Source of the DNA: Stratiformator vulcanicus
Lineage (GTDB): Bacteria > Planctomycetota > Planctomycetia > Planctomycetales > Planctomycetaceae
Length of the DNA: 39,041 nt
Direction: 5' to 3'
Assembly: GCF_007744515.1 (NCBI RefSeq)
Contig: NZ_CP036268.1
Location: 464,091-503,131 of the forward strand
Shown: in pieces, positions 1-32,137 of the stretch
Layout of the letters: every line of letters starts with the position of its first letter
How positions within the stretch are numbered: the first letter of the stretch is position 1
The notes under the pieces: model-generated
Databases searched by the model: none
What the model was told of the DNA's origin: nothing
Seen by the model: the letters and a program-made list of their open reading frames with translations, nothing else
Translations under genes and position numbers: made by a program

Positions 1-1
1 C

Positions 2-211
2 CACGGGGTTTATTGCCTGTCGGTTCTTCCGGACGGTCGTGTGGTCAGCGCGTCATGGGACAAGACCGTGAAAGTCTGGAATCCCGACACCGATGGATTG
101 ATAACTATTAGTAGCACGACAGTACATGGAGTGTTTCCGAAAGCTTATCACTTCTACACATTAAAACCGGTCAGCATTCTCGCGATGGAGCCCGATGCGA
201 CGAGAAATTGA
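2..211 (+). CDS. C-terminal end of a WD40-repeat protein (partial, runs off the left edge)
   Basis: The frame is open from base 2 to a TGA at 209-211. The visible 69 residues begin with a clear WD40 repeat: a hydrophobic strand, then PDGRVVSASWDKTVKVWN, which has the DG turn, the S-x-S/D-K-T stretch and the terminal VW. The last 35 or so residues do not look like WD40. In planctomycetes such tails usually end large NTPase or kinase proteins with a beta-propeller, but the catalytic part lies outside the window. The stop lies only 15 bases before the left inverted repeat of an IS remnant, so the tail may have been altered by that insertion. The large WD40 protein on the minus strand at 10.2-14.3 kb is a possible relative. 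Confidence 0.7.
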   Translation, partial: HGVYCLSVLPDGRVVSASWDKTVKVWNPDTDGLITISSTTVHGVFPKAYHFYTLKPVSILAMEPDATRN

Positions 212-3004: not shown

Positions 3005-4402
3005 TCAATCATCTGATTCACCCAGCTGACAAGGCAGCTGCGTATCAAAGGGGTCAGGCATCATGATCAGCTCATCCGAATGCGAGGTTCTCACGCGATC
3101 CCACCCGAGCGTTACGTCGTCGCAATGCCACAAATCGGCAATGATTTTCGCTCTCGCGTCAGCGCGGGTGTGCAAGCGTCGAGAAATGCTCGAAAATCCT
3201 AGGGGAGGCGAAGGCACTGCCTCCGGGGCAACAAGGCCGCCTTCGCACTGCTCTTGGAAAATCTTGAGTGGCCCAACGAATTCGTGGTACCCCTGATTCA
3301 CGACTGCCAGCCGCGAGCCGAGACTCAAATCAGTCGCCGCCTCGTCCCAGGTTGCTCCCAGTTCATCGATAAACTCGGTCAGGAAGCGGTACTTGATCCA
3401 CGGGTCAAGTCTCTCAGCCAGCCATGGCTGATCGTCAGACGTAATGGCGCCGAGTGTGCTCTCCCACATCTCGAAGATGACCTCGGTCCAGTCAGGTAAT
3501 GAAACACATCGATCGGCATATCGCCGAGTTGCGTCGAGAAAAAGCCGCTGCACTCGCAGGGACCAAGCGTCGACCCGTAGCGGCTGGCCGAGCGAAGCGA
3601 AATGATTGAATCTCTCCACCGCTCGCATCCAGAAAGACCGGCGTCTTAAATCTGGCGCAATCCACTGTTTCAGCGGAACGAATGCGTCGGGTGATTCGAC
3701 GGCGGCAGCAAGGACCAAGGCGGTTGCCCCCAATCGCAAGCAGCGCGAAAACTTGGAGCGGTTCGAGTCGCCGGCAGTGCAGTGGTAGCGGAAGTACCCG
3801 AGATCGGAGCCGGCATAGTTGTCTCTCAGGCCGCGAGCCGCCAGAGCACGGCCGTTGTTGTATCCGGGGAAAATATCCCTCTCGAGAAATCGGAGACGCG
3901 GCGAGCCGACGAAGGCATCTTGTTGGAAGTCCATTCCACCGGCACCGAGAAAGCATCTGGTTGCGAAGAAAGGGACTACAGCCGTCGCGATATCGGCGGG
4001 ATTTCGGGTAACGAGATAATTTTCGTGACATCCCCACGCCGGCGAACCGGCTGCGAGAATCCCTCCATAACCGACGTCTGCAATGACCATACTTTCATTG
4101 CAGACGTCATCGCGACAACAGGCGTGCCGGGCCAAGTGTTCTTGGCTGACCCGCATCAGTTCCACGTCGAACGGCGACCGGCATTCGGCCGTCGCCAACT
4201 CTAGATGACCAGAGTCGAAATAATGACGCCCGAACATTGAAAATACGCCCGCCGACGCGGAAATCGTCGGCGTCAGCTTCGAGGTGGCGTCGAAAAATTG
4301 CGATTCGAACTCGCCCGAATCGCGCCGAGACGGGTCGCGAAGAGCCGTGAGGTACTCGACCTCTTCGCCCATACAGAACTTGGGTGCGATGATCCGGCGC
4401 AT
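3005..4402 (-). CDS. Pup ligase / depupylase family protein (PafA/Dop-like), divergent
   Basis: A 465-residue protein of the carboxylate-amine ligase fold that holds PafA, which joins the small protein Pup to lysines, and Dop, which deamidates or removes Pup. Matching landmarks in order: GEEVEY at residues 12-17 (the acidic metal/ATP-binding strand), YFDSGHLELATAEC at 61-74 with the catalytic-type Asp at 63, GCHENYLVTR at 124-133, PFFATRCFLGAGG, then YHCTAGDSN followed by LRLGATALVLA, and LDPWIKYRFL. The length is typical. The first loop is short, and ATAEC and GCHENYL resemble PafA more than Dop. The EPHAD-type motif normally just before the YRRLH region is not recognisable, so activity may differ. 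No Pup with a C-terminal Gly-Gly-Glu/Gln and no proteasome subunit is in the window. The gene is divergent from the small membrane protein at 4783. Confidence 0.75.
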   Translation of the reverse strand: MRRIIAPKFCMGEEVEYLTALRDPSRRDSGEFESQFFDATSKLTPTISASAGVFSMFGRHYFDSGHLELATAECRSPFDVELMRVSQEHLARHACCRDDVCNESMVIADVGYGGILAAGSPAWGCHENYLVTRNPADIATAVVPFFATRCFLGAGGMDFQQDAFVGSPRLRFLERDIFPGYNNGRALAARGLRDNYAGSDLGYFRYHCTAGDSNRSKFSRCLRLGATALVLAAAVESPDAFVPLKQWIAPDLRRRSFWMRAVERFNHFASLGQPLRVDAWSLRVQRLFLDATRRYADRCVSLPDWTEVIFEMWESTLGAITSDDQPWLAERLDPWIKYRFLTEFIDELGATWDEAATDLSLGSRLAVVNQGYHEFVGPLKIFQEQCEGGLVAPEAVPSPPLGFSSISRRLHTRADARAKIIADLWHCDDVTLGWDRVRTSHSDELIMMPDPFDTQLPCQLGESDD

Positions 4403-4782
4403 CGACGCTTTGCTCGATTCGAAGATTGAAGATGCACAGTCGGCTTACCCGTGTCGGCCGCGACAAGATAAGGAAGCGAGATGGAGGCGGCTTTTCGGGT
4501 GCCTTCTGTGACGTTTGCCATTCCAATCTGCCGTCAAACGGCACTCGGATCGTCGAGCGTTACTCCGGCAGTCTCTCGTCGTCCCCGGCCATCGGCGACA
4601 GGCCAGACGCTGTAGGCCATTTGTCGGAAACAGGTTAGGGCTGCGACTTCCCGACTCTTGCTGCTTTCTACCGCAAGCCGAATTTCGGATGACGAATTTC
4701 CGGAAAATTTTGCCAGCAGGTGCTTCCTCTACAAGGGCAACAGCACAGTTCCCCGCGAAATACTCACCCACGAGGCACCGCA
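4403..4782. promoter_or_regulatory. Divergent intergenic region between the PafA/Dop-like gene and the 73-residue gene
   Basis: About 380 bases hold no convincing gene. The short open frames on either strand have no ribosome binding site or family resemblance. Because the flanking genes point away from each other, the promoters of both must lie here. I could not pick reliable -35/-10 boxes or an operator by eye. Confidence 0.45.
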
Positions 4783-5004
4783 ATGAACACCAAAACCACA
4801 AGCAAACTCGTGCACCTTTCCGGCCAAGACTATCTACGCGAAGAACTTCCGACCGAGGGCGAAGCCGTCGCACAGCAAGTCCGCTACTCGATCTTGCAGG
4901 GCGAGGGTGAAGGGACGGCTTCCCGGTCTGGTCGATTCGCCAAGCATCTCATTTGGCTGCTTCCAACGCTCGCCGCTATGGCGATCGGAAGCGGATTGGC
5001 GTGA
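4783..5004 (+). CDS. Small protein with a C-terminal membrane segment (73 aa), unknown function
   Basis: The ATG at 4783 is chosen over an upstream in-frame one at 4720 because GAGG lies 7 bases before it. The N-terminal 50 residues are hydrophilic and acid-rich (for example SGQDYLREELPTEGEA). The C-terminus is a single hydrophobic stretch, HLIWLLPTLAAMAIGSGLA, running to the last residue, as in tail-anchored proteins. It is not recognised. Its position opposite the Pup-ligase-like gene invites the idea of a Pup-like substrate, but the C-terminus lacks the Gly-Gly-Glu/Gln end and is hydrophobic. It lies 86 bases upstream of the 520-residue gene on the same strand and may share its transcript. 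Confidence 0.5.
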   Translation: MNTKTTSKLVHLSGQDYLREELPTEGEAVAQQVRYSILQGEGEGTASRSGRFAKHLIWLLPTLAAMAIGSGLA

Positions 5005-5090: not shown

Positions 5091-6653
5091 ATGCCCGAGC
5101 TCTTCCCCTATCCGCCAGTTGACCCCGAAGTCGAAGTCGAAGACGTCGACGGAGGCAAGTCGTTACAAGAAAGGCTGTTCGAATTGGTGCAAGCGTCAAC
5201 CGTGGTCACATACCTGACTCACCCTCAGACGGGACTCCACAGTAACGCAAAGTGGTCAGCTGCTGACTCTACAGCTGAGTTCGTTTTGACGGCCTATTCG
5301 CGAAAGTTTCTTAGAGACGGGAGATTTGACTACAACAGCCTCGACGAGCTCAGGCAGATGCTGGTAGTGGAAACATTCAAACGTCTTGGTCAACAGCGAT
5401 TCTTCCCCTCCGAACGCTCTTTCCTATATTTTCTCGCCCTTGGCCAGAAACAGCGAGAACAGCGCGGCCGGGACGCAGTCACGTTCTGTCTACTTTTTCT
5501 CGCCTCCTTGGACGACGACCGCACCAATTGGAGATTCCTTGCCGAGAACTTTGGGGATTCCGAGCTCTCTTCGGAGGTGGGTGATGTTGAATTGCCCCGC
5601 TCGGAACACCTCACGCTAGAACAACAATCTGGACTTGTAGAGAGACGCGATGAATTGAGAGAGCTGGCGAATCCCACTGACCGCGAAAAGCGGGCACGCT
5701 CTGTGATTCGCGACTACTTAGACAGCAAACGGCATCCGCGCAGTGGATTTCGAGTAGCTGCCTCGGCTCCTTTCATCGAGGTAGATGACAGCGACGAACG
5801 TTTGTTAAAATCGCTCGGGAGATTGCTGTGGACTGGCGAGCCGGATCATCAACTCTCAAATTCTGAAGAACTCTTTGATTTGAACAAAAAGTTCCAGCTT
5901 CTGTTCCCCAGGTCGGTTGGGTTTTCGCTATCGCCGAACGACGCAGGGAACCCAGTGATTTTTCTGACCGCACAATTTATTAATCTTCTTGGCGAGGTGG
6001 GTGAAGCAATTGCCGTCGACTGCGCGATTTTAAACGAGTGTCGAGAAGGGGAGGCTTTACGGCTTTCAGGAGAACGCCTCGAAAAGGCTTCTTGGGTTCA
6101 CAAATTGATGGCACAGGCTCGCGAACGACTAGTGCATAGAGTGAGTGAAGAGAAGCATAGGGAAGTCTTGCGCGATTATCTTTATGGAATGAAGAACAGC
6201 GAAGTCGCCACAAGGCAAAATATCGCAGCTCCAACTGCATCGAATCGGTACAGGAGAGCAAAAGCTGAGTTGGCCAGCCAGCTTAGAGTGCTCGGTGTAG
6301 CCCCGGAAAAGGCTAGTGATGAACACACTGCGGAGTATGCGCTAGCGGTCGTTGACTGCTACGTCAACGGTCTCCGCGATTTCTTCCGCACAAAGAGTCA
6401 GCCACCCGCGGAGCGCAATTACGACGCGCGGACCGATCAAGACATTCGCAACCTAGCGAAGTCGAAATACCCAAATGAACACGTGATGAAAAGCGAAATA
6501 GATCACGTTGGGAACGCCGCCAATCACGGTCTGCAATTTCCCACTTATCAGAGTAAGCCGCTCGGAAAAATATTTTCTACTCCGTGGGCTCGATTTAACT
6601 CCGACTTCAGCGAATTGGTAGAGCCATTAAAAGAGACTATTCATCATCCTTGA
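5091..6653 (+). CDS. Large protein with sigma-region-4-like helix-turn-helix (520 aa)
   Basis: The function is not known. Residues about 353-395 contain HREVLRDYLYGMKNSEVATR followed by PTASNRYRRAKAEL. This has the spacing and pattern of the DNA-binding helix-turn-helix in sigma-70 region 4. Near the N-terminus, the stretch around SLDELRQMLVVETFKRL (residues 84-100) resembles the helical region 2 of planctomycete ECF sigma factors, where a fixed 'EELW..L..iT..K' pattern is common. A highly charged middle part of more than 200 residues separates the two and has no assigned domain, and about 120 residues follow the HTH. The protein is far longer than an ordinary ECF sigma factor. It may be a degenerate or fused sigma-like regulator. 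The ribosome binding site is weak (AGAAAGAA). It precedes the coupled pair at 6795-9133. Confidence 0.6.
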   Translation: MPELFPYPPVDPEVEVEDVDGGKSLQERLFELVQASTVVTYLTHPQTGLHSNAKWSAADSTAEFVLTAYSRKFLRDGRFDYNSLDELRQMLVVETFKRLGQQRFFPSERSFLYFLALGQKQREQRGRDAVTFCLLFLASLDDDRTNWRFLAENFGDSELSSEVGDVELPRSEHLTLEQQSGLVERRDELRELANPTDREKRARSVIRDYLDSKRHPRSGFRVAASAPFIEVDDSDERLLKSLGRLLWTGEPDHQLSNSEELFDLNKKFQLLFPRSVGFSLSPNDAGNPVIFLTAQFINLLGEVGEAIAVDCAILNECREGEALRLSGERLEKASWVHKLMAQARERLVHRVSEEKHREVLRDYLYGMKNSEVATRQNIAAPTASNRYRRAKAELASQLRVLGVAPEKASDEHTAEYALAVVDCYVNGLRDFFRTKSQPPAERNYDARTDQDIRNLAKSKYPNEHVMKSEIDHVGNAANHGLQFPTYQSKPLGKIFSTPWARFNSDFSELVEPLKETIHHP

Positions 6654-6794
6654 GGAAGCAAGGATTGGGGGGGGACCACTGAAGCGAGACCGGAAACGTA
6701 GTCGAAACTAACACTTTCCGGTACTTCTCATAGTGAATTGTGTCGCCGAAGATTCAGCTCAAAAGCGACGAAAAATATTATTAAGGAAATTGTC

Positions 6795-7442
6795 ATGAGC
6801 ATTCAAACTGACACGATAATCGAACCCGCTTTTTTCGCATCGGACAGCGTCTTTGGCGTCATCCGTCGCGGGTATCCGGAAGAGTATGTTCTGGCGAAAT
6901 GGCTTTCGGCGAGCAGCGATTCGGCTCCAGGCCACATCGTCTCGCTCCCTGATGCCGTGAATCTCACTGAAGCCGGTTCCGCTGCTCGGTACCAGATCGC
7001 CGCTGCTTCGGAGTCACCGAATCTAGCATTCACTGTATCAGGGGAATTAGCGGCATTTCAGGACGAATTTGAGGAAGACCAAGTCGAGTGGGACATCGTG
7101 GAGGAACGGAGCAAAGTGAGCTTCAACATTGGTCCGTTAGAGTTCGTTGACGATAGTCAGGAGGCGGCGCTCATTATTGGCGACGACGATTCGGTCGGGA
7201 AAGTTGACGAGTATGACTGGCCCAAGTTGCTGTCCGATGCGACACTCGATAACGATGTCGAGAGATCGGATTGGCTTGCGCGCCAAGCGCCTTTATATGG
7301 CCTGTGCCAGGGAAAGCATCTAAGGATCGGGCCGATTCAATTGCCCGCTGACACATCGTTTGATGCCGTGCGACAGCGACTTGCTAGTTCCATTTTTGTC
7401 GTCGTCGTTAATCTTACGAGTGCCGAAGGTGACGAAGGATGA
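6795..7442 (+). CDS. Unknown protein (215 aa), translationally coupled to the next gene
   Basis: The ATG at 6795 has AAGGAA five bases upstream and is preferred to the longer frame from 6738. The product is acidic, with clusters such as DEFEEDQVEWD and GDDDSVGKVDEYDW. It has no signal peptide, membrane helix or motif I recognise. Its stop overlaps the ATG of the next gene by four bases (ATGA), so the two products are probably made together and may form a complex. It lies 141 bases after the sigma-like protein gene, on the same strand. A cytoplasmic adaptor or partner protein would fit, but that is inference from gene order only. Confidence 0.6.
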   Translation: MSIQTDTIIEPAFFASDSVFGVIRRGYPEEYVLAKWLSASSDSAPGHIVSLPDAVNLTEAGSAARYQIAAASESPNLAFTVSGELAAFQDEFEEDQVEWDIVEERSKVSFNIGPLEFVDDSQEAALIIGDDDSVGKVDEYDWPKLLSDATLDNDVERSDWLARQAPLYGLCQGKHLRIGPIQLPADTSFDAVRQRLASSIFVVVVNLTSAEGDEG

Positions 7443-9133
7443 ACTATTTCAAATCGTTTTCGCAAAGTAGCGACGCACGGCAAGCTGTTGCGAGGGTTGC
7501 GCAAGACGAAGGTCACTCCGCCGCAATCGAATTTTTTCTCGATAAGGCTGCTTACGGTGTCACGGACTCGTTCAGCTTGCAGGACAAGATTCGCTCCTTT
7601 GAATCAGGGGTCGCGACTGCAGCGTTCAAAATGCTGATCTCCGAGTGCCGGCTGCCGGGTGATCCTTGTCGCGGCCTATCGAGTGAAATTTGGATTCGAT
7701 TCGCCAACAGTAACGAAGATTCAATAAGAGCGTTCTACTCGTCGCTCTGGCGTGCACTTCCCGAATCTTGGCGCGAGGATCAGCTTCCATACCTAAGCTC
7801 GCATGACGGCTCATTAGATGACCTCGCCGGACTCGTGGAACGCTTCGACCATGAACCGCATGTGATGCAAGCGGTTTGGTTCCCGACTGCGGAAATCGAC
7901 GAAGGCAACCCTACTGAAACAGTATTTCTTTTCCGAGTCGTCGTTTCTTTCCGTGAGAACACGTCGGTTGCGGGGCAAGACAAGAGGGATGAGGTACTCC
8001 CTCGAATCATTCAAAGGCCGAGATCTCGCTATTGCGTCGAAGCGATGACGCTGGCCACGGTCGAAAAAGGTCTCGCGACTATGCTGCAGAACTCCGATCT
8101 CAAGCTTCCGGATGGCAGTCTAATCGAGATCGACCTTCAGCACCGACCTCTCCAGAACGAGGGAGAGGCGTCGCCAGCTCCGAAGACCAATCAAATCACC
8201 GGGCGTTCCCTGACACTTGCGGTATGCATCGCGACTTGGGCGTCGTTAGTCCAGCGTGAGTTGCAACCCATTTTAGCGTCGGCCTCTATGGTGGGGCCCA
8301 GACTTCGAGGCGTTGAATACATACTCCAGAAGTCGAAAGCGCTCAACGATACCTACTTCAAGTATTTCCTTGTCGAAGAGGCGAACTATTCGGAAGTCGT
8401 CGGTCCAGCTTGGAAAGAGCGATGCATTCCGGTCAAAGGGATTCCGGATCAAAGGTTCTGGAACAATTATGGCTCAACGATTTTGACAGACGGCTTCGAT
8501 TTATGGAGGACCTTGCTGCTTGACTCCACCACAAGCTCCCACGGCGATGACTCTACCGGTTTGGCAACAAGCAATCCGAGCGAGCCGATCAGCGCGATCA
8601 TCAAGTCTGCGTTGGAAACGATCGCGGATGCTTGCGATAGTGAGACTACCGACGATGATGATAAATCCGTGAATTGGCCAGCGGATGAGCACACCACCAT
8701 GATCGCCGTTCCTTTCGGCGATGATCCGTCGAAGATTGCTTGCAAGTTGACAATTCAGTTGACCCGATTGCTACAACAGTTTCCGGCTGAGCAAGGATTA
8801 CCTCGAACTGCGGTGCCCTTGTATCTCGGCAGCGTCCCATCTTCGGACGCGGCTTCGAAACTGACTTCCTGTATCGTCGAAGGGGCGAACACCGTCCGGC
8901 AATTTTTGAACCATTCGCTTGACGCCCAGCCGCCATTCACAGAATTCGTGCTTCAAAACCGCCTACGTCAACAAACGTGGCTAGACACAATTTTCGTCTG
9001 CTTTGAGCCGGACGTTTTCAAAGCGGAACCTGGCAGTCAATCTGCAATTTGGTTACAGATGATTCGCGATCTCAATGCGGCTCATCTGGTCTTAATATCC
9101 AACAGCATCCATTCCGCAGCCTGCCTTAAGTAA
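7439..9133 (+). CDS. Unknown protein (564 aa), second gene of a coupled pair
   Basis: It starts inside the stop of the preceding gene (ATGA overlap), with a purine-rich GGTGACGAAGG just upstream. I do not recognise the family. The protein is soluble-looking and rich in Trp and acidic residues. It has an acidic low-complexity stretch near residues 400-412 (ETTDDDDKSVNW) that looks like a linker between an N-terminal region of about 390 residues and a C-terminal region of about 150. The C-terminal region runs ... WLDTIFVCFEPDVF ... AHLVLISNSIHSAACL, an alternating strand/helix pattern that could be a Rossmann-like or effector-associated fold, but no catalytic motif stands out. No terminator is seen downstream. 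Confidence 0.6.
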   Translation: MNYFKSFSQSSDARQAVARVAQDEGHSAAIEFFLDKAAYGVTDSFSLQDKIRSFESGVATAAFKMLISECRLPGDPCRGLSSEIWIRFANSNEDSIRAFYSSLWRALPESWREDQLPYLSSHDGSLDDLAGLVERFDHEPHVMQAVWFPTAEIDEGNPTETVFLFRVVVSFRENTSVAGQDKRDEVLPRIIQRPRSRYCVEAMTLATVEKGLATMLQNSDLKLPDGSLIEIDLQHRPLQNEGEASPAPKTNQITGRSLTLAVCIATWASLVQRELQPILASASMVGPRLRGVEYILQKSKALNDTYFKYFLVEEANYSEVVGPAWKERCIPVKGIPDQRFWNNYGSTILTDGFDLWRTLLLDSTTSSHGDDSTGLATSNPSEPISAIIKSALETIADACDSETTDDDDKSVNWPADEHTTMIAVPFGDDPSKIACKLTIQLTRLLQQFPAEQGLPRTAVPLYLGSVPSSDAASKLTSCIVEGANTVRQFLNHSLDAQPPFTEFVLQNRLRQQTWLDTIFVCFEPDVFKAEPGSQSAIWLQMIRDLNAAHLVLISNSIHSAACLK

Positions 9134-10177: not shown

Positions 10178-13100
10178 TCACAAACACCAGTTTGACCGTA
10201 CGCCTTCGGCTCTTAAAACAACAATCCCCCCTCCCGAGGTCTCTACCGCGAACCACCCGGATGTAGAAAACGCGACACCTCTAGGATGTTCAGGAACAAA
10301 TACTTCGTCGATTACAACAGCGGAATGATTGCAGATCGTCAATCGTCCACTTTCCTTCAACACTCCGAATAGACAGTCTCCCACTTTGGCGATATCAACA
10401 ACTCGGTCTTCATCCTCCGCGAGTATTACTTCGCCCGTCCCCGTTGATTGGATCAAGTGTGCTTGTCCAGTCTTGTCGCGAGCTATAATGACCTTCGTTG
10501 ATCGCAGCACCACAAACTTTTCAAATGCGGGCTGCCCGTGCGAAAGCTTCACTGTACAATCGGACACAATATTCCACTTATAGACAGATCCCCGCGAGGT
10601 CCCGATGACAAGGGTCGACGAATCAAACACCGCGACTGATGTAGGATACTCATCTGATAATTTTAGGCTCGCTCGCTCGCCCCAATCGTATTGTTTCCAG
10701 GCCCGCGGGCGATCTCGCCATCCCCGAATTGCGGGCCGTGGGTCCCACACCTCAATCTTTCCGTCTTGCCCGGCGCTAGCCCATCTTCCGTCTATCAGCG
10801 GCACGATTGAAGAGACGCGGTCATTGTGGGGGCGGAAAGCTGGCCCGGGCGGCATGGCATTACGCTCAAACCTCTTCGATCTAGCAAGGATTGCATCTCC
10901 GGACGTGTCGCTGAACCCCGCGTTCATATCGCGGTGCATCGCTTCGAACTCGTCAATTACAGCAATTTCTCCATACAAATTAGAAGTGATAACAGCGTAC
11001 GGTCCTCCTTCGACAGCATAATCCGCCCCAATCCGGTGCGTTGCATGTTTTTTTACATTTGTAAATATTTCCCATCTTATGAAAATATTTCTCTCACCGT
11101 CGTGCAATATCAATTGCGTTGGGCCGGCAAAGCCGATCATGGTTAAATCTTCACAACTGTAGTCGCCATCTGCGTTGCAGTAATCCCGCTCTAGTTGTAT
11201 TCCTTCATTCGTCGTCCATAGCGACAGCGTTTTGTCTTCACCTGCCGACACCAGCGAACCGTCGCTATTGCATGCCAAGCAAGTGACCCCGCCCCTGTGC
11301 GCTTTAATTCTCTTTGGCGGTCCGTATAGATCGGTGAATTGAAGAAGGTTCCCTTTGTCGTCGCCAACGAACAGACCAACATGCGTCAACAACATGCAGT
11401 TTAAAGTGTGTTTTGTCTCAAACACTTTCCTGACTTCCGATATGCCAATATCCCACGCGAGAAGAGTGCTATAGGGTCCTAAAATCATTACCGCTTCTGC
11501 CGGATTGTCAATATCCGGGAAGAAAACGTGAGATGCCAAAAGTAAAATTGCATTCTCGCCAAGGCATTGCAACTCTTTAAATATCCATTTGTGGCCCTCA
11601 AATTGTTGGCCTCCGTAGTTCAATGACTTTTCTATATAAATCCCTGCCTTTGGGTTCCATTCGATAATGTTGCCTGACTGCATCATCAAGAGAACCCAAC
11701 CGCTATCCGCAAGAAAGAGGTTTATAGAATCCTTAAAGTTAGAGAAATCATCAGCCTCCTCTTCGATCGTTATGCAATCAATCATAACTCGTTCCTCAAA
11801 ATTGTAGGCGACGACCTGCCTGTCGGTAGTAAGCGCGCAGATATATGGGAAATGCACTTTGAGGGTCTCTACTGGTGAGCAGCAAGAGAAGAGCGACTCT
11901 GGTCGAGATGCAGGCAACTCCACATAGAGAACTTCTTCTCCGGTGCATATGGCGAGACCATCTTCGATTCGAGCTGCAGCGGTTATAGTCTTTTCTGTTT
12001 GATATAAGATGCGTATTTCGTTTTCTCGCAGATCCCAGTGAACAATCTGCGTACATGTTATTGCGAATACTTCTTCATCTTGTGTAATAAAGAAAACATC
12101 TTGGAATCTGAGAGAATATTGATTGCATTTGATCAGTGTCCCGTCCAGTACATTCCAAGAAATGAGTTGGGAGCGTGAGTCCAGAGCGATTACCCTATTT
12201 GAACTCGAAAGACGTATTGATTTGCAAGTGGTGCCGGAAAGCGAAATTGTGTAGGGGATGCCACTACGCATCGTGTTTATTTCAGCAAGCCAAGGCCATT
12301 GCGCGTCACCATGGAGGGCCGAGAAGATGCGTTTGACACGGTCCACGGCTTCGGACAGCGAATCAAGCTCATTCTTTTTTAGCGTAAAGAAGTTATAGAC
12401 CTCCTGTATCAGTGTGGCCGGGTGCATATACACAAAAGGTCCGTGCCAGCGGATGGCTTGTAACATTGCCGTGAGGACTTCGTGCTGGGATCCCGATCCC
12501 TCAAGCAAGCGCATTACAAGACGGGGGAGCCCGTCTTTCGGCGGTGAAGCCACCAGCCGTTCCGCGAGATCGATGAGAATTTCGTCCGCTAGCGTTCCGC
12601 CGAGGAACTCGGCCGGAAGCATCCACTGTCGCGGTGTGGTTCGGATTCGCCGCACGACCTGCTCGGCCCACTCTTTTGGAAGTTCTGGCAATGCACCACG
12701 CCCCGGTCGGCGGGAATAACGCAGTGTGAGCGCGGCGAAGTAGTACAATAGCGAGTCGTGCAGGAAGCCGACGCCGTTCCCGTCCTTGCGGAGCAGTGAG
12801 AACTCCAAGAGCGTGTCCTGCTCGGACTCACTGAACTCTTCAGTGAAGTACGACCCCTGATGCCAACATTCGTCCTCCGGCCACCAGCGGGTGCGCAGGT
12901 GTAGTGGATCCTCAAGCAGGCAGATCGCCGTTTCGAGACTGTCGAGTCGCGTGCTTTCCTCGTTCGGCAGAATTGCCAGTGCCAGCCGGCACAGCGCGGT
13001 TCGCACCAGCGCTGGAGCACGACGTCCCGCCAACCTCGTCGGCAGTTGTCTGCCGTATGTATTAATGTCGCGTATAATGTGCTGATCGACGACGGCGTCA

Positions 13101-14281
13101 TAGAGATCGAACAACGAGTCGATCTGCTCCAGACGCTCTCCCTCCAATGACGCCACGAAGTGAGTCAAAAGCGGGGTCGAGATCAGGCTCTCCTGCTTGG
13201 CGTGTCGCCGGATGAACTCTCCCAGTTTTCGGCACTCGGACTCCACGTCGTCTTGTAAGACCGGCAAGCCAAGTTTCTTTCGCAGATACTGCTCATAGCC
13301 GCGAAAGTTTCGCAGGTAGTCCTCCGCGTTCTGCGGGTGGATCGGTTCGAGATCGAAGGCGACAAATTGCTCATCATCCCAGAGTTCTGTCATCACCGCG
13401 TCGCCGGAGGCGGTCGAGCGATAGGTGACCACCACGCGATGGCCGTACTCCCCGAAGTCCCGCTGGAATAGCCTGATTACTTTTGCGAGTAGCTGGCGTC
13501 TCGTGCTGTCGGCCGAGTTAAGATCGACGAACAAGAGCAATTTTGGCCCGCCGGCCGTCGTCAGCCATCGCTTCAGTCGCCAGCGGATCAGTTCCTTCTG
13601 CTCCGTGCTCCAACCGGACGTTTGATCCTTGCCCCGGCCAGAGGTTTGGGCGATCAACTCCAGAATCCAGTCACCGTTGTTAATCCTTTCCAGCGTGTCG
13701 TCGATGACGTTGTGCCATTTTCGGTCGCCGCCCGAGTTGCAGCTTTCGACTAATTGGTCGAGACGAGACAGCTTAGCTCCGACTTCGGCCCAGCAGGGTA
13801 GGTAGCCGGCCAACTCGGGCAGTTGGCCGACGCGCTCGCTGCGGACACCGAGCTGTTCGGGTATCGGGAAGCAGTCGAAGAACGCCCGCCGACACGCAAC
13901 CGTCTTACCTGCTCCCGAGCGAGACAGTAGTAAGACTCCATGCGTGTCGCCCGTCTCACCCAGGTGCCGCAGCATCGCCGAGAGCGTGGGATTGACGCGT
14001 TCGGCATGCGGCTTCGCGTCTTTCAGAAGCTGCTCCGCGCCGGCGTCGCTCCTCTCAGCCCGAAGCGGCAGCGGCAGATAGAGCTGCTCGCCGGGAAGGT
14101 CATTGTAGAAATACGCCCATGGCGAGAGCAGGCGTCGACCCTCGGCGGAATCGGCTTCCGGCCCCAACCTTCTTCTTAGTTCCGCCAGACCCAACAGGTC
14201 ATCCGTCTTCGACAGCACCTTGGGTACGTGATGCCTCAGAAAGGTCAGTTGACTCGCTATCGGCGCACTTGGCTCTGGCAA
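10178..14281 (-). CDS. Giant STAND-type NTPase with C-terminal WD40 repeats (1367 aa)
   Basis: Residues 116-127 (VLLLSRSGAGKT) form a Walker A loop and LLLFVDLNSAD near residue 245 a Walker B strand, giving a NACHT/STAND-like ATPase. A helical region follows (about 330-690). From about residue 700 the protein is beta-propeller-like. The clearest WD repeats are CLACNSDGSLVSAGEDKTLS near 1000 and DGRWASAGQDGKIEVWD near 1160. STAND proteins are ATP-driven switches that assemble on ligand binding; in bacteria many act in antiviral or stress responses, with the repeat region as sensor. The N-terminal 110 residues, where an effector would sit, match nothing I know. The start is a TTG at 14281 because a TGA lies in frame just upstream and the first ATG (residue 103) would cut into the domain; GAGG lies 10 bases before it. 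No terminator is obvious. Confidence 0.8.
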   Translation of the reverse strand: MPEPSAPIASQLTFLRHHVPKVLSKTDDLLGLAELRRRLGPEADSAEGRRLLSPWAYFYNDLPGEQLYLPLPLRAERSDAGAEQLLKDAKPHAERVNPTLSAMLRHLGETGDTHGVLLLSRSGAGKTVACRRAFFDCFPIPEQLGVRSERVGQLPELAGYLPCWAEVGAKLSRLDQLVESCNSGGDRKWHNVIDDTLERINNGDWILELIAQTSGRGKDQTSGWSTEQKELIRWRLKRWLTTAGGPKLLLFVDLNSADSTRRQLLAKVIRLFQRDFGEYGHRVVVTYRSTASGDAVMTELWDDEQFVAFDLEPIHPQNAEDYLRNFRGYEQYLRKKLGLPVLQDDVESECRKLGEFIRRHAKQESLISTPLLTHFVASLEGERLEQIDSLFDLYDAVVDQHIIRDINTYGRQLPTRLAGRRAPALVRTALCRLALAILPNEESTRLDSLETAICLLEDPLHLRTRWWPEDECWHQGSYFTEEFSESEQDTLLEFSLLRKDGNGVGFLHDSLLYYFAALTLRYSRRPGRGALPELPKEWAEQVVRRIRTTPRQWMLPAEFLGGTLADEILIDLAERLVASPPKDGLPRLVMRLLEGSGSQHEVLTAMLQAIRWHGPFVYMHPATLIQEVYNFFTLKKNELDSLSEAVDRVKRIFSALHGDAQWPWLAEINTMRSGIPYTISLSGTTCKSIRLSSSNRVIALDSRSQLISWNVLDGTLIKCNQYSLRFQDVFFITQDEEVFAITCTQIVHWDLRENEIRILYQTEKTITAAARIEDGLAICTGEEVLYVELPASRPESLFSCCSPVETLKVHFPYICALTTDRQVVAYNFEERVMIDCITIEEEADDFSNFKDSINLFLADSGWVLLMMQSGNIIEWNPKAGIYIEKSLNYGGQQFEGHKWIFKELQCLGENAILLLASHVFFPDIDNPAEAVMILGPYSTLLAWDIGISEVRKVFETKHTLNCMLLTHVGLFVGDDKGNLLQFTDLYGPPKRIKAHRGGVTCLACNSDGSLVSAGEDKTLSLWTTNEGIQLERDYCNADGDYSCEDLTMIGFAGPTQLILHDGERNIFIRWEIFTNVKKHATHRIGADYAVEGGPYAVITSNLYGEIAVIDEFEAMHRDMNAGFSDTSGDAILARSKRFERNAMPPGPAFRPHNDRVSSIVPLIDGRWASAGQDGKIEVWDPRPAIRGWRDRPRAWKQYDWGERASLKLSDEYPTSVAVFDSSTLVIGTSRGSVYKWNIVSDCTVKLSHGQPAFEKFVVLRSTKVIIARDKTGQAHLIQSTGTGEVILAEDEDRVVDIAKVGDCLFGVLKESGRLTICNHSAVVIDEVFVPEHPRGVAFSTSGWFAVETSGGGIVVLRAEGVRSNWCL

Positions 14282-15948: not shown

Positions 15949-16410
15949 ATGAGCAAGAATTTTGGCTTATTGCTCGGTTGCGTGTTGGCGGTCGTAGCAA
16001 CGACCGGATCAGCGAATGCCCAAGATTTTCGGTCCGCACTCAAAATCGATTCGCGAGGAACTGGTTTTCAGCAGTGGGCGAGCGGCTACGAGGAAATGGA
16101 ACACAAGGTCGAGATGAGTGATCGTAGCGCGGACGCACTCTTCACTGGACGGTCGCCCGGTCGTCATGCCATGAGTGATTCCACCGCTTTTCGCCTGCCT
16201 GATGGGTCGATGTTCATATCGCGATTCGACATGGAAATCGGCCATGAACGGTCGTATTGCGGAGCGGGCTACGTTGCCGGGGCTGACGAGGCGATGGTTG
16301 AAGGCGGCTTTATTCCGACCGGTGGATTCATGAAATTGCAGGGCCGCACCTATTGCCCGGCAATGCCTCGCAATGTGGTCACCCATTCGCGTCTTGACGA
16401 CGTCCGTTAA
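15949..16410 (+). CDS. Secreted protein of unknown function (153 aa)
   Basis: The ATG is preceded by CCGGAGTAAAGTT, a good ribosome binding site. Residues 1-24 (MSKNFGLLLGCVLAVVATTG then SANA/QD) are a signal peptide. The mature part of about 129 residues has two Cys (SYCGAGY and TYCPAM) that could form a disulfide in the periplasm or outside. The sequence MFISRFDMEIGHERSYCGAG has a strand-like pattern, but I cannot name a family. It lies between a terminator and the PDZ protein gene, in the same direction. Confidence 0.6.
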   Translation: MSKNFGLLLGCVLAVVATTGSANAQDFRSALKIDSRGTGFQQWASGYEEMEHKVEMSDRSADALFTGRSPGRHAMSDSTAFRLPDGSMFISRFDMEIGHERSYCGAGYVAGADEAMVEGGFIPTGGFMKLQGRTYCPAMPRNVVTHSRLDDVR

Positions 16411-16467
16411 GGTAGGCCGAGTTCGGTCCACTCTCAATTCACTATACAATGAACAATGGAAATACCC

Positions 16468-17106
16468 ATGAAACCGATCCTGAAAACTGCAAGCATTCTT
16501 TGTGTGTCGACTCTCGCCGCTGCCGTCACACTTGGGGGAGATCGAGGGCCGGCGCGGCAGCAAGACCCCGCGGTCACCGAAGCCCCCCATCTTAGCCCAA
16601 TCGAGCACGCCCTCGGGGCGATGCTGCGAGAAGTCCCGCCTTTGCTCGAGCACCATATGCCGGTGTTAAAGTCCGGGGCCCTTGTGACGGAAATCGCTAC
16701 CGATTCGCTGTTGCGGGAAGAAGGCGTCTGCCGGGGCGATGTCATCATCGCGGCGGATGGTCGGCTGCTCGAAAGTTGTTCCGAGTTCCTGCGGCAGTTC
16801 GAGCAACAGCCCCCGCAAAAGTTGCTCATCGCGCGCGGGACCCGCATCAAGCAAGTCGATCTGGCAATTGGGGCTGGGCCCACAAACCCCCGGACCGTCC
16901 AAGAAGTCGTCGCTATCAACGTGAATATCTCGGAAGGTTCCGTGTCCATCACTGGTACCAACGGCCTTTACCACATCGTCGCGACCTACTCCGGCGAAAA
17001 CGGCCAGTTAATTCGCATCGACGAGCACGGCCCGCATGCCAAGATTCAGGGTCTCGTCAACGCACTCCCGGAGCCGCTTCGTCGCGCTGTTCGCGAACGC
17101 ATGTGA
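16468..17106 (+). CDS. Exported PDZ-domain protein (212 aa)
   Basis: The start at 16468 (MKPILKTASILCVSTLAAAV) has GGAA upstream and gives a clean signal peptide; an ATG four codons earlier is possible. Residues about 70-130 form a PDZ domain: SGALVTEIATDSLLREEGV, then CRGDVIIAADGRLLES, then a helix and KLLIARGTRIKQVDL. This is the 'GALV..v...spA...Gl..GDvIv..nG' pattern seen in HtrA-like proteins. No protease domain is attached, so it is a stand-alone PDZ protein that would bind C-termini or unfolded segments outside the cytoplasm. The last 80 residues are unassigned. A terminator follows directly. Confidence 0.75.
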   Translation: MKPILKTASILCVSTLAAAVTLGGDRGPARQQDPAVTEAPHLSPIEHALGAMLREVPPLLEHHMPVLKSGALVTEIATDSLLREEGVCRGDVIIAADGRLLESCSEFLRQFEQQPPQKLLIARGTRIKQVDLAIGAGPTNPRTVQEVVAINVNISEGSVSITGTNGLYHIVATYSGENGQLIRIDEHGPHAKIQGLVNALPEPLRRAVRERM

Positions 17107-17130
17107 CGGATGGCATCGGCCCAATCGATC

Positions 17131-17162
17131 AGGCTCCCGGTTCTCCGGGAGCCTCTTTTTTT
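17131..17162 (+). terminator. Rho-independent terminator
   Basis: A perfect 10-bp stem, AGGCTCCCGG (17131-17140) with CCGGGAGCCT (17145-17154), has loop TTCT and is followed by CTTTTTTT. It ends the PDZ protein transcript. Confidence 0.92.
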
Positions 17163-17299
17163 GAATCGTCAACGACGAATACAACAGGTTTCGTCAGAAA
17201 AACGATGCCCATCTCGCTTACTGCTTGTAAGAGTCGGCGGTAGTCGCGGTGACTGCCGCCGAATCTCGCGGAGAATTCCAACTTAGCGAGGTGAGGAAC

Positions 17300-17853
17300 A
17301 TGGCGATGAAAAAGGTTCGGTACTTCGGATTGGCTGTTGTGGCATGTGCTTTATTGTACCTCGCGGGGGCAGCCGCCGCGCGGCAGATGCCGACGGACGC
17401 AGTCGAAAGCAGTCCGCCTTTCACTCAGCAAGAGCTGGCTGTCGACTTAGAGTCGATCGAGCGCGCCGCGTGCATTTCGATACGCGCTGCAGCGATTGCC
17501 ACGCCTTGGAAAAGGACGTCGTGTTCGCCGGCCCGAGTCTCTTCGGGCTCCGTGCTCGGATGAGCCTGGCCGAAATCAAAACCGCGATTTCGCGGCCGAA
17601 TGAGACAATCGCGACGGGATTTGAGGATGGGACATTGGTGCTCGTCGACGGCCGATTAATCTCCGGCAACATTACAGTCGAGGAAGACCACTACTTATAC
17701 AGTTCGGCCGACAAAAATGAGTCCTTCACCAAGGTGGAAGTCGAGGTCTACTCGCCAGCGATTTCCGGAATGCCTGAGGGGCTGCTCGAAGACCTCGGGA
17801 AACACGAGATCGACGACCTGCATTATTTTCTGGTGAACCTGAAGGGCGAGTAA
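17300..17853 (+). pseudogene. CxxCH heme-binding-type protein, frameshifted paralogue
   Basis: Translation starts at 17300 behind GAGGTGAGG and gives a signal peptide or anchor (MAMKKVRYFGLAVVACALLY) in one frame up to about ESIERA. The rest of the protein is in another frame from about 17465: RVHFDTRCSDCHALEKD with the CSDCH heme motif, GPSLFGLRARM, GTLVLVDGRLISGNI and MPEGLLEDLG. The change of frame lies between about 17460 and 17475, in a GC-rich run. The downstream part matches the intact minus-strand paralogue at 2111-2773 in order and motif. Either the gene is dead or the frame is corrected by slippage or a sequencing error. The next gene starts 35 bases later. Confidence 0.75.
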
Positions 17854-17888: not shown

Positions 17889-18461
17889 ATGTCGATGACC
17901 AGCGGCTCGATCTACGACGCCTTCGACGAACAGGCGATGAACGTCATGCGGGTCGCCGTACAGCTCGCTATGCCTCCGACCGTCAAGGTCACCGACTGGT
18001 TAATGGCCGTTGCCCGTTGCGGGATCGTCGTTCTAGACGAGATTCCTTCTGCCGAACCGGCAGGTCGAAGAATCAACGGCCATCGACCAGCGGCGGTGAC
18101 TTCGCTGGAGCCCGATCTTGAGCGACTCTTCGCAAGGGCCGCGTCGCCTGAGGGAACCGGTCCGATTTCGGTGGTGCAGGTTCTCTCCATCATTGGCAAC
18201 GATAGGGAAAGAAACTCGGCCGCAAAAAGGGAGACGGGTTGCCCCCGAGTTCCGAACCCGCGTGGAGACGGCGCGCTCAAGGTCGATTCAACGGTACCTG
18301 CCGCCGACTATCGCGATGACATGGACGAAATCCTAGCAACTTGGATCGCGGCATACGATTCCAAAGACGAAGTGCAGCTGGGGGAACTTCGAACACGAGC
18401 CCAGCAGCTTGCACTCGAATTCGCTCGTCATCATTCCGTTGAATCCCAGCCTGCATCATGA
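17889..18461 (+). CDS. Protein with possible Clp-N-like N-terminal repeat (190 aa)
   Basis: The N-terminal 45 residues (FDEQAMNVMRVAVQLAMPPT, then VKVTDWLMAVARCG) resemble the helical Clp N-domain repeat that begins 'ft..a..vl..A...A'. Later, LERLFARAASPEGTGPISVV could be a second, weaker unit. These domains bind substrates or adaptors of ClpA/ClpC. A stand-alone protein of this size could be an adaptor, but the match is by pattern only. The C-terminal 58 residues are acidic helices (DYRDDMDEILATWIAAYDSK), and this segment exists a second time, inverted, at 1763-1976. A second ATG lies two codons in; neither start has a strong ribosome binding site. Confidence 0.55.
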   Translation: MSMTSGSIYDAFDEQAMNVMRVAVQLAMPPTVKVTDWLMAVARCGIVVLDEIPSAEPAGRRINGHRPAAVTSLEPDLERLFARAASPEGTGPISVVQVLSIIGNDRERNSAAKRETGCPRVPNPRGDGALKVDSTVPAADYRDDMDEILATWIAAYDSKDEVQLGELRTRAQQLALEFARHHSVESQPAS

Positions 18462-22760: not shown

Positions 22761-22770
22761 CGATATGCTT

Positions 22771-23769
22771 TTACCTTCTTGGATGCTGTCGCACGTATTC
22801 GGCTAAACCTGGCGTACCGCTTTCACGTGCGATCTCTTCTGATTCATCAACACCGCACGTCAGATCGAGCATCTTGGGACTTCGATGAGCAATAGCTCTC
22901 TGAGGTGCGGATAGCGGATAGGCCTGTCCCTTTGCTTCGGCCTCAGCCAAGACCGAAAGCAATCCGTTCGGATCTTCCTCACGCCAACGATTCTTCTGAA
23001 TGAGTTCGGTATCGTTCCCAGAATGGAGACTCTCTCCTTCAGCGATGACACGAACTTTCCCGACGATCTTGTTGCGTGCTAAAGGTGAATAACAGCGAAG
23101 TCCCATTGCACTAGAGAGCCGAAGAAAAGGGATGTCTTCTTGCGAAAACCTGACTGCGTAAACGACTCCGTACTCATGCTGTTGTGCAAGTGCATCGCAC
23201 CGCTCGCGCAACGGTCTCAATCGGTCGACTTGTTTTTGCAACCACCTCAGATTTACACGAACGACTCGATTGGGAACTGCAACAGAGGCCACAAGGGAGA
23301 TAGCTTCACGCCGTTGTGATTGATAGTGGTCCTCTCGAACCATCTCCTCTTTCAGGTACCGTTCGAGATCGCGAGTTGCATAACGGATCGCGCGGGCTGA
23401 TTCGCCACCCGCGAAGTCGCGCTGTGCATAAATCAGTGAGCGAAGGCTGTACTCGCGGAAATACATAGGCTTGAAGTCTTCGCCTTGGAAATCGCCTGAA
23501 AGTGAGAATGAATCAAGGACGACGTATCCACTAGAATGAACGCCGCACCAGTTCATCGAACGGAACACGGAGACAACGTCGACGATGTCTTCTACGGAAA
23601 AGAGATTTGGCGACCAACGGAGGCCTTCCGCGTCGATTTTGGCTTCATTCGATGACGATGTCGCGTGGTACTGAACCCATGAGTCTTGATCAATCTCAGC
23701 GGGAAACAGCGCATCACTTTCCCGGAGCTCGTCACCACTCAACGTCCGGATGTCTGCGAATCCAGTCAC
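22771..23769 (-). CDS. Operon protein with possible ADP-ribosyltransferase-like fold (332 aa)
   Basis: It starts with GTG at 23769, overlapping the methylase stop by four bases (GTGA), and ends 10 bases before the ATPase gene, so it is an integral part of the operon. Near the N-terminus WVQYHATSSSNEAKIDAEGL (residues 32-51) resembles the 'YHgTs..na..I..eGl' opening of ADP-ribosyltransferase-like proteins. Later, YVVLDSFSLSGDF and YGVVYAVRFSQEDIPFLRL followed by MGLRCYSPLARNKIVGKVRV look like the core strands and a closing IvGkV segment. The helical middle (residues 110-200) is charged. A catalytic Glu cannot be assigned with confidence. It could be a toxin-like effector modifying DNA, RNA or protein, or only a structural relative. 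I know of no standard defence component that matches it. Confidence 0.55.
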   Translation of the reverse strand: MTGFADIRTLSGDELRESDALFPAEIDQDSWVQYHATSSSNEAKIDAEGLRWSPNLFSVEDIVDVVSVFRSMNWCGVHSSGYVVLDSFSLSGDFQGEDFKPMYFREYSLRSLIYAQRDFAGGESARAIRYATRDLERYLKEEMVREDHYQSQRREAISLVASVAVPNRVVRVNLRWLQKQVDRLRPLRERCDALAQQHEYGVVYAVRFSQEDIPFLRLSSAMGLRCYSPLARNKIVGKVRVIAEGESLHSGNDTELIQKNRWREEDPNGLLSVLAEAEAKGQAYPLSAPQRAIAHRSPKMLDLTCGVDESEEIARESGTPGLAEYVRQHPRR

Positions 23770-26700: not shown

Positions 26701-26900
26701 AGTTCATCCGCCGGATCAGGCCACAGCGACGCACAGATGACGGCCCGACAAGCCGCCAAGGGCCGCCGCGCCCACCAGATATGCAACGTCGAAATATGCC
26801 CATGCCGAATCGACTTCTCCCGCCGCGCATGGGCGGAGATACGAGCGATAGGGAGATCGACTTCGATGAGGCGTTTCGGGTATTTGATCGCTGAAATCAT
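23766..26900 (-). CDS. DUF1156 adenine-specific DNA methyltransferase (1044 aa)
   Basis: The N-terminus has the DUF1156 pattern KYPKRLIEVDLPIARISAHA, then HGHISTLHIWWARRPLA. VVDPFAGGGSIPLEALR (residues 182-198) is the AdoMet-binding motif I, and TDPPYYYSVQYADLADFFY near residue 590 carries the DPPY catalytic motif IV, here spelled DPPYYYS. The order, motif I before motif IV with a long insert between, fits the very large N6-adenine methylases of this family (COG1743). The role would be to mark host DNA so that the operon's nuclease and helicase spare it. The start ATG overlaps the stop of the nuclease gene (ATGA), and the stop overlaps the next GTG. Confidence 0.88.
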   Translation of the reverse strand: MISAIKYPKRLIEVDLPIARISAHARREKSIRHGHISTLHIWWARRPLAACRAVICASLWPDPADELCPPAFREAAATQLMAFAHRMFPAGINEEGHQLNKTSSPESRGRWEGLIQSEKNGLPLDSNDPAHQQVLRGALLDFIADFANWDNSTVPAYLETSRALTQAAHEALGGVPGTRPLVVDPFAGGGSIPLEALRVGADAFASDLNPVAVLLNKVVLEYIPKYGQKLADEVRKWGQWVKAEAEKELAEFYPKDPDGATPIAYLWARTILSEAPGQVDEPVEVPLIRSMWLCKKANRKVAMRFATNKQGNVITDVVNVDTSDGKHLIVRRPRLEIFEPSKASEVRDGIVARGSATCPVTGFTTPLNSVKQQLKSRFGGGDDARLLCVVVKREGTTGRQYRMPDSHDIDAIDKAKKYLELQIEPEEVPTESTTNYHSFVNRGPIYGMTKWRHYFTPRQSVALALLARSIRRVGETSTELKSDVTLASAVASCLTLAFGKQADLTNSLCAWEPIAQCPRHLFGKQAIGMVWDFAEGIPIGDSSGAWSIQVSRTDHVLESIGHDWAAGTVQLASAVSHPLPSDSVNALVTDPPYYYSVQYADLADFFYVWFKRILSASHPDLFKTPLIDKDDEIIVQSPGHEFATEGKNNAFYEEMMTRAMSDSRRIVQPAGIGVVVFAHTSTAGWESQLQAMVEAGWTITGSWPIDTEMASRVIAQGRSVLASSVHLIIRPREDQDGTLRNETGEWRDVLSELPKRIHEWMPRLAAEGVVGADAIFACLGPALEIFSRYSRVEKASGEAVPLREYLEQVWATVSTEALSMIFKDADAAGLEPDARLTAMWLWTLGGGTGKAAGESATIVPGLADEDTDGDPVPAEKTVASTGYSLEFDAARKIAQGLGIHLEKNESIVEVKGDKARLLPVSERTRHLFGKDEATATTRGRKKAKAKQLDLFKTLDEIESEAEETIAGELKPQAGETVLDRVHQSMILFASGRGEALKRFLVDDGAGNEARFWKLAQSLSALYPKETDEKRWVDGVLARKKGLGL

Positions 26901-28606: not shown

Positions 28607-28627
28607 TTGCGTATACGCTTTCTGATA

Positions 28628-32071: not shown

Positions 32072-32137
32072 ACTCGTCTCCACCTGCACGACAGGCGGCC
32101 CCACGTGCGCAATTCGAAAATCGCTCCCAATAAGGCA

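Follow-up and report, generated by a model that had tools for sequence, protein, structure and literature searches.

Pupylation is mainly known as a tag that directs proteins of Actinobacteria to the proteasome. What, then, is an enzyme of this type doing in the planctomycete Stratiformator vulcanicus, in a stretch of DNA where neither Pup nor a proteasome is encoded? The gene is found on the minus strand (3005-4402) of a 39,041 bp stretch of contig NZ_CP036268.1 (positions 464,091 to 503,131), which was analysed as a whole and is referred to as the window; it codes for a PafA/Dop-fold (Pup-ligase-like) enzyme of 465 residues. The initial annotation, which was based on the sequence alone, had described an orphan enzyme diverging from a small tail-anchored protein. 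We found that the window enzyme belongs to a distinct clade of Pup-ligase-like proteins, the other full-length members of which have a gene for a Pup-like modifier beside them, and that part of this clade is associated with NTPase-WD40 receptors. We read the gene, with a probability of roughly 0.57, as belonging to a receptor-linked, proteasome-free variant of pupylation.

The assignment of the enzyme is based on profile matches, a structure model, clade membership and active-site residues. Its 465-codon reading frame is intact and uninterrupted and carries the GEEVEY, YFDSGHLELATAEC and GCHENYL stretches by which it had been recognized; its codon-usage score (0.128) is inside the range of other window genes. 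The Pfam family Pup_ligase (PF03136) matches residues 51-437 with an E-value of 2.6e-34 (119.4 bits, cut-off 25). The equivalog models for PafA (TIGR03686, 78.9 bits, cut-off 551.3) and Dop (TIGR03688, 71.6 bits, cut-off 492.3) give scores so far below their cut-offs that the protein does not qualify as a standard PafA or as a standard Dop. The window enzyme was not matched by PADLOC.

The genome consists of one contig of 5.23 Mb and is 98.7% complete. A whole-genome search revealed a single Pup_ligase gene. The absence of Pup and of proteasome genes, which had been noted for the window, holds for the entire genome: a search with the Pfam Pup model (PF05639) gave no match, and the sole gene with a proteasome fold is HslV, so that there is no 20S proteasome. 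The gene is thus not a plain paralogue of a canonical Pup-proteasome locus elsewhere in the genome.

Profile search and structure prediction both support the proposed relationship to PafA and Dop and extend it to a full-length PafA/Dop fold. The AlphaFold model, computed from an alignment of 18 rows (the window protein and 17 relatives), has a predicted local distance difference test score (pLDDT) of 86.9 and a predicted template modelling score of 0.90. Its top Foldseek match is Dop (4b0r, E 8.6e-23, TM 0.74). In VIA-align, Dop gave Z-scores of 39.6 and 39.1 and PafA one of 36.5, whereas a YbdK-type protein scored 21.6 and glutamine synthetases scored about 13; the identity to the Dop and PafA chains in the structure alignments is 21-24%.

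In an alignment of 19 PafA/Dop-type rows, the window enzyme has kept the invariant columns, including E16, E68, E73, H126, R169, R185, R205, H207, D212, R413 and R417, as well as D63 and H66, which are nearly invariant. The initial annotation had taken the lack of an EPHAD-type motif as a deviation from Pup ligases. This was not borne out. The invariant PafA/Dop columns are present, and we know of no EPHAD-type motif that defines Pup ligases. The catalytic Asp and the metal- and nucleotide-binding residues correspond to E14, E16, R59, Y61, D63, H126, R185, R205, H207 and D212; of these, R59, Y61 and D63 were equated by alignment position with Dop R90, Y92 and D94, the roles of which are taken from the available text of PMC8599861. 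None of the 11 clade rows has an insertion at the position of the Dop-loop, before strand 2 (as defined in the available text of PMC8599861 and PMC7947786). A peculiarity of the window enzyme is seen in the Pup-contacting loop. Position 181 is Thr in 18 of 19 rows and Tyr in the window enzyme alone; position 182 is Thr in 17 of 19 rows and Asn in the window enzyme. The clade relatives have a Thr-Thr loop, as does Dop.

A tree was computed from 44 proteins which were selected from the matches and do not represent the full match set. Eleven full-length proteins, including the window enzyme, form one clade with a support of 100/100, and the tandem paralogues of Pup systems as well as the other planctomycete enzymes of the tree fall outside of it. 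The window enzyme has the longest branch within the clade. Two further members (L107 and L108; loci are given by L numbers, genomes by G numbers) are fragments and were excluded from the tree. Matches to the enzyme were obtained in 9 of 170 genomes of the order, and a profile of five relatives matched in 28 of 397 genomes of the class; of 392 genomes sampled from the phylum, 38 have a member of the Pup_ligase family. Searches of viral contigs did not reveal a relative: one remained unmatched and another returned 13 pattern-matching stretches, none of them a relative. A contig collection gave one distant actinobacterial match. A phage or plasmid origin was discarded, as viral contigs contained no relative and plasmids only an actinobacterial Dop in a plasmid-labelled record.

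In five loci (L036, L037, L103, L109 and L110) the clade enzyme is adjoined by a second Pup_ligase-type paralogue, and these five paralogues form a separate clade (support 100/100). AAA, E1 (ThiF) or JAB-type genes were seen as well in L036, in L037 (its counterpart by blastp) and in L103; L109 and L110 were scored for the second paralogue only. The second paralogues are located at L036:10684-12405, L037:2320-3900 and L103:5686-8928. The one from L036 has GTHLSA where a GCHENY-type motif is expected, and the canonical paralogues of L043 and L045 likewise lack the HEN motif. The clade enzymes of L103 (9083-11563), L109 (3-2108) and L110 (7347-9839) carry a long C-terminal extension, with frames of 826, 702 and 830 residues of which the matched part stops near residue 483-505.

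Loci were scanned for short frames ending in Gly-Glu or Gly-Gln; a composition filter gave seven candidates and a looser filter the rest. In all ten other full-length clade members, the enzyme gene is adjoined by an open reading frame (ORF) for a Pup-like protein of 57-67 residues which ends in R-x-x-x-[S/P]-G-[E/Q]. This ending was fixed as a pattern when 11 proteins were known, and the ORFs of L133 and L134 are out-of-sample. Scanning 28 loci (454,549 bases) in six frames for the pattern followed by a stop gave 14 matches, 13 of which are the Pup-like ORFs, while reversed sequence gave 1 match and order-2 simulated sequence a mean of 0.4 (20 runs). The remaining match (L104:6576-6947) was taken as chance, as was a 24-residue match (L179) from a scan of five more regions. 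In the seven loci measured, the Pup-like ORF precedes the enzyme gene by 28-101 bp (69 bp in L034) and has the same orientation; in L104 it is convergent and downstream. The ORFs of L133 and L134, both from genome G030, differ in 11 of 64 codons, with proportions of nonsynonymous and synonymous differences of 0.034 and 0.139. There is little conservation beyond the last eight residues, and the Pfam Pup model recovers none of the 13 proteins. ORFs from canonical loci end differently (RQEGGQ, RQDGGQ and RQAGGE from the same phylum, and QKGGE). The C-terminal residue is Glu in seven of seven modifiers of the receptor branch, so that no deamidase is needed, and Gln in four of six modifiers of the branch with the second paralogue. 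From the sequences, the putative carrier of the clade is Pup-like, not tail-anchored. The initial proposal of a ligation system with a different, membrane-bound carrier thus comes near to what is seen in the clade in that the putative carrier differs, being Pup-like and missed by Pfam Pup; a membrane-bound carrier is not supported.

The second component is a receptor-like protein. A gene on the minus strand of the window (10178-14281) codes for 1367 residues with a P-loop NTPase core and C-terminal WD40 repeats (WD40 5.9e-12). The AAA_16 match (7e-4) is below its cut-off but a GAGKT motif is present, and the protein was counted as P-loop NTPase with C-terminal WD40 part. Models for NACHT, NB-ARC and nSTAND did not match it at E-values up to 0.1, and from its architecture we infer that the core is STAND-like. 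At window positions 1-211, on the plus strand, lies the end of another NTPase-WD40 receptor gene, which starts upstream of the window (genome C1:461704-464301). The two copies flank the enzyme. In consecutive blocks of 100 positions up to 500, they are identical in 98/100, 79/92, 83/92, 98/100 and 97/100 residues; this drops to 68/100 for positions 501-600 and to 23/96 for 601-700, and the WD40 parts show little or no alignment. The core has been kept while the sensors are unlike, which, as far as sequence comparison can tell, looks like a kept engine with exchanged sensors.

Receptor and clade enzyme occur in the same stretch in the window and in L034, L035 and L105. In G047, G638 and G748 the receptor is on other contigs than the enzyme; in G047, a WD40 fragment borders an enzyme fragment. 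In G030, the single enzyme is surrounded by about six receptor places and by three Pup-like genes. Of the 397 class genomes, 6 contain the receptor family, and all six are among the nine that have the clade enzyme (that of G047 being a fragment). The three genomes with enzyme and without the NTPase (G088, G068 and G637) all belong to the branch with the second paralogue. In the order sample, the receptor family occurs in 4 of 170 genomes. Hypergeometric values for the co-occurrence are 1.6e-11 (class) and 4.5e-7; they ignore shared ancestry, and the class samples for enzyme and receptor (397 genomes each, drawn by the same procedure) were assumed to be identical sets.

These results can be combined into a model for the receptor branch. 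It would comprise one PafA-like enzyme, a modifier of 57-64 residues ending in Ser-Gly-Glu, STAND-like NTPase-WD40 receptors and accessory proteins. The enzyme would bind Mg-ATP through the conserved Glu, His and Arg residues, phosphorylate the C-terminal Glu of the modifier and then transfer the modifier to a lysine, with Asp63 as base. The receptors, with differing sensors on a kept NTPase core, would perceive a trigger and, in response, switch on the enzyme or direct it. The 20S proteasome would play no part. That the enzyme acts as a ligase rather than a hydrolase is suggested by the missing Dop-loop, the Glu endings and the finding that G000 and G030 have no further Pup_ligase gene. Control by the receptors and a role in conflict or defence are suggested by the association itself, the unlike sensors and the surroundings, which include DUF499, DUF1156, GmrSD-type and helicase genes and a CRISPR array with Cas2. 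This may be taken further to an NLR-like immune or conflict system with pupylation as output, in which multicopy STAND-WD40 receptors serve one enzyme and a Ser-Gly-Glu modifier without a proteasome, and in which the modifier of the window genome would have been replaced or would have co-diverged with the Pup-contacting loop. We put this extended version forward tentatively and rate its chances at less than even.

Several observations weigh against a receptor-linked pupylation system. Dop is ranked above PafA in structure searches and also by phmmer against PDB chains (73 versus 38 bits), and the Thr-Thr loop of the relatives speaks against ligation. Physical linkage of receptor and enzyme is restricted to the window, L034, L035 and L105, the two being on separate contigs in G638 and G748. 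In the window, the enzyme is encoded on the strand opposite to the trio of genes described below and 5.8 kb separate it from the large receptor gene, counted to the nearer end of the latter. Finally, a modifier gene could not be detected in the window genome. The Pup-like ending pattern is absent from the window and from 46 kb of flanking sequence (L131, L132 and L182). A hidden Markov model (HMM) of the Pup-like proteins found none in the genome at E-values up to 10; this search scored 150 of 166 candidates and did not include a positive-control genome. A genome-wide DNA pattern gave 28 sites (12 in the reversed control) and no convincing small ORF; being restricted to CGN codons for Arg and to TCN/CCN codons, it is not exhaustive. 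Among the 22 sites with a true stop, no frame exceeds 44 codons. However, the HMM also misses known members when these are left out of it (L034 is not recovered, L106 is found at E 4.2 and L035 at E 0.18); its negative result for the genome is thus not conclusive and a diverged modifier could escape. The modifier of the window genome may have diverged beyond recognition, may be encoded elsewhere and have been missed, or may have been lost.

In the relatives, the Pup-like ORF is mostly found in the place that corresponds to the 380 bp gap between the divergent genes (4403-4782). This gap contains no frame with a Pup-like ending, and its three minus-strand frames were read individually. A minus-strand frame of 142 codons was rejected, as it ends in RGRHG and has a non-coding codon score (-0.025). 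An 82-codon frame (4273-4521, minus strand) overlaps the start of the ligase gene in another phase and has no stop at KRRCAGSS. Over its first 40 codons the codon score is ambiguous (0.098 versus 0.108 on the opposite strand), so that it was not called a modifier. It starts with MANVTEG, and KRRCAGSS loosely resembles the RRxxSGE endings of the relatives' modifiers.

The missing modifier leads to the idea of an orphan or decaying enzyme: the module would once have been present, the modifier gene would have been lost, and the enzyme would now be drifting or have acquired a new small substrate. The failure to find a Pup-like ORF in window and genome is what this predicts, and it would also explain why the window enzyme has the longest branch of the clade and why Tyr-Asn replaces Thr-Thr in the Pup-contacting loop, as in no other of the 19 rows. 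A decaying gene would hardly be expected to have an intact frame, all invariant active-site residues, a confident structure model and a codon usage that is inconspicuous among the window genes. Loss of the modifier in the window genome has to be taken as a serious rival, even if we consider it improbable that the orphan scenario as a whole is right. An orphan modifying enzyme, as had been offered initially, is conceivable for the window genome alone. It could also be that the enzyme is a Dop-like hydrolase or deamidase which removes or matures a modifier instead of attaching it. Dop being nearest among solved structures and in the phmmer search, the Dop-like loop of the relatives and the Gln endings in the loci with a second paralogue point in this direction. 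The missing Dop-loop, the uniform Glu endings in the receptor branch and the small advantage of the PafA over the Dop equivalog model, which holds for the window enzyme and for four of four clade relatives tested, point in the other. A hydrolase would also leave G000 and G030 without a second Pup_ligase for ligation, and no such neighbour of the enzyme was seen in L034, L035 and L105. We therefore regard a hydrolase as rather unlikely.

The third alternative involves the divergent small gene (4783-5004, plus strand), which codes for 73 residues with a weak hydrophobic segment at the C-terminus. The ORF is present as described; that it is coding is plausible, but its codon score (0.150) allows no firmer statement. 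It coincides with the mean for in-frame reading (0.150) and is higher than the 95th percentile for off-frame reading (0.05), and it is not separable from antisense frames (mean 0.107, 95th percentile 0.228). The proposed membrane helix is marginal. The protein does have a hydrophobic end, but the best Kyte-Doolittle value over 19 residues is 1.53 (residues 55-73), and this is reached by 6.8% of the 103 window ORFs of 60-95 residues. The protein does not end in Glu or Gln; the last residue is Ala. When 99 genomes were searched, nothing was found below an E-value of 0.04 except in its own genome. A Pfam match to an arterivirus family was below cut-off and was taken as chance. A tail-anchored short ORF occurs within 1.2 kb of the ligase gene in only one of 11 other loci (L105), at a hydropathy threshold of 1.5 which also catches the ORF from the window; at 1.6 the latter would be excluded. 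The small gene is thus not conserved beside homologues, which the initial annotation had named as a refuting observation. Three further tail-anchored frames, in L036, L105 and L034, were set aside because they are antisense to a Pup-like ORF or are contained in a long ORF. L105, a receptor-linked locus, has two frames that end in a hydrophobic segment, one of 88 codons (8822-9088) and one of 340 codons (16375-17397), the latter weakly PfkB-like.

The 73-residue protein might nevertheless be the carrier, conjugated at the membrane and perhaps cleaved within an internal Gly-Glu run. It is the divergent neighbour of the enzyme, contains QGEGEG, and has the short ORF of L105 as a possible counterpart. 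We consider this very improbable, given the lack of relatives outside its own genome, the terminal Ala, and the different, Pup-like protein that is found beside the relatives' enzymes. As a conserved partner, a tail-anchored carrier was discarded on the basis of the homology search and the single similar locus.

The small gene is followed on the plus strand by a trio of genes which is positioned as in the relatives. It consists of a 520-residue protein with weak similarity to sigma-70 region 4 (5091-6653), where the relatives have the variable first member of their trio, a 216-residue protein (6792-7442) in the place of the second, and a 564-residue protein with weak similarity to the Lon/ChlI fold (7439-9133). 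The former two have no detectable sequence relation to the genes at the same place in the relatives. The third is related to the corresponding gene, as an hhalign comparison with the profile from L034, L105, L106 and L135 gave a probability of 96 (E 4.7e-9); an order search with this protein recovered only itself. Two of its relatives match ChlI below cut-off (0.0015). The structure model is poor (pLDDT 45.3), and its low-confidence fold match to Lon domains is a lead only. A 190-residue protein (17889-18461, plus strand) is related to L035_185, which comes next after the ligase gene of L035 (hhalign probability 77, E 2e-5; blastp 2.7e-5). The L035 gene is in turn related to genes from L105, L133 and L134, to which the window protein has no direct match. 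A Clp N-domain, suspected by eye among the accessory proteins, is not backed by any Pfam model.

The gene immediately downstream of the one for the ligase-like enzyme (2111-2836) codes for a protein with a putative c-type heme-binding domain (TIGR02603, 9.4e-21); none was noticed beside the relatives' enzymes. An apparent defence locus extends from 19809 to 32104, with DUF499, DUF1156, GmrSD N-terminal and SNF2-type helicase genes. Its DUF499 gene matches an anti-phage-associated NCBIfam model with 6.9e-38, which is below the cut-off. By blastp, homologues of three genes from this set adjoin the PafA-like fragment in L107. About 7 kb beyond the end of the window there is a CRISPR-like array (L132:7501-9760, C1 ~510.5-512.8 kb) with at least 31 copies at a spacing of 71-74 bp, which is adjoined by a Cas2 gene (1.7e-15).

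In eukaryotes, immunity is linked to conjugation of the ubiquitin type. According to the available text of PMC10097602, such a link also exists in the CBASS defence systems of bacteria. If our reading of a receptor-linked pupylation variant is true, the clade would tie pupylation to receptor-triggered responses as well. The clade supplies small, testable pairs of enzyme and modifier which have been overlooked by the Pfam Pup model, and the window represents a natural case of an enzyme that persists without a recognisable modifier. While the individual parts have known relatives, the combination of modifier, PafA-like enzyme and NTPase-WD40 receptors is not evident in the open-access papers searched as far as titles and the beginnings of abstracts show, where no Pup-type ligase is linked to a STAND-WD40 receptor.

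With actinobacterial PafA and Dop, the window enzyme shares the glutamine-synthetase-type fold over nearly its full length and the residues for metal, ATP and catalytic Asp, and its relatives encode, likewise, a small modifier ending in Gly-Glu or Gly-Gln beside the enzyme. It differs from them in that there is no Dop-loop, in that the genome has one Pup_ligase gene and no 20S proteasome, and in that the relatives' modifiers end in R-x3-[S/P]-G-[E/Q] rather than in GG[E/Q]. The available text of Iyer et al. 2008 (PMC2588565) describes membrane-anchored Pup ligases from Rhodopirellula and Plesiocystis with an insertion of four transmembrane segments. These are also unlinked to proteasome genes, and one of them is from a planctomycete, but the window enzyme has no segment with a 19-residue Kyte-Doolittle value above 1.43. 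Tagging without a proteasome is known from Corynebacterium glutamicum, where pupylation occurs without 20S core subunits (available text of PMC12288473); this organism, however, has ARC/Mpa, canonical Pup, PafA and Dop. An AAA gene (AAA_5, weak bpMoxR) and a weak-VWA gene are found in G030 at L034:4519-8034, upstream of the Pup-like and ligase-like genes. This pair resembles the described MoxR-vWA ternary conflict systems. The receptors resemble the STAND NTPase beta-propeller conflict systems of Kaur et al. 2020 (PMC7159879) in the combination of NTPase and WD40 part, in the occurrence of several copies and in the modular sensor. For those systems, the available text does not describe a pairing of a Pup-type enzyme with STAND-WD40. 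The same paper mentions, in a single sentence of the available text, that in such lineages Pup conjugation is coupled to a ubiquitin-like system. L036, L037 and L103, and perhaps L109 and L110, look like loci of this kind, and their enzymes are in the same clade as the window enzyme. These loci have a second Pup_ligase and, where seen, E1, JAB or AAA genes, and the class search gave no NTPase-WD40 receptor in G088, G068 and G637; for the window branch the reverse is true.

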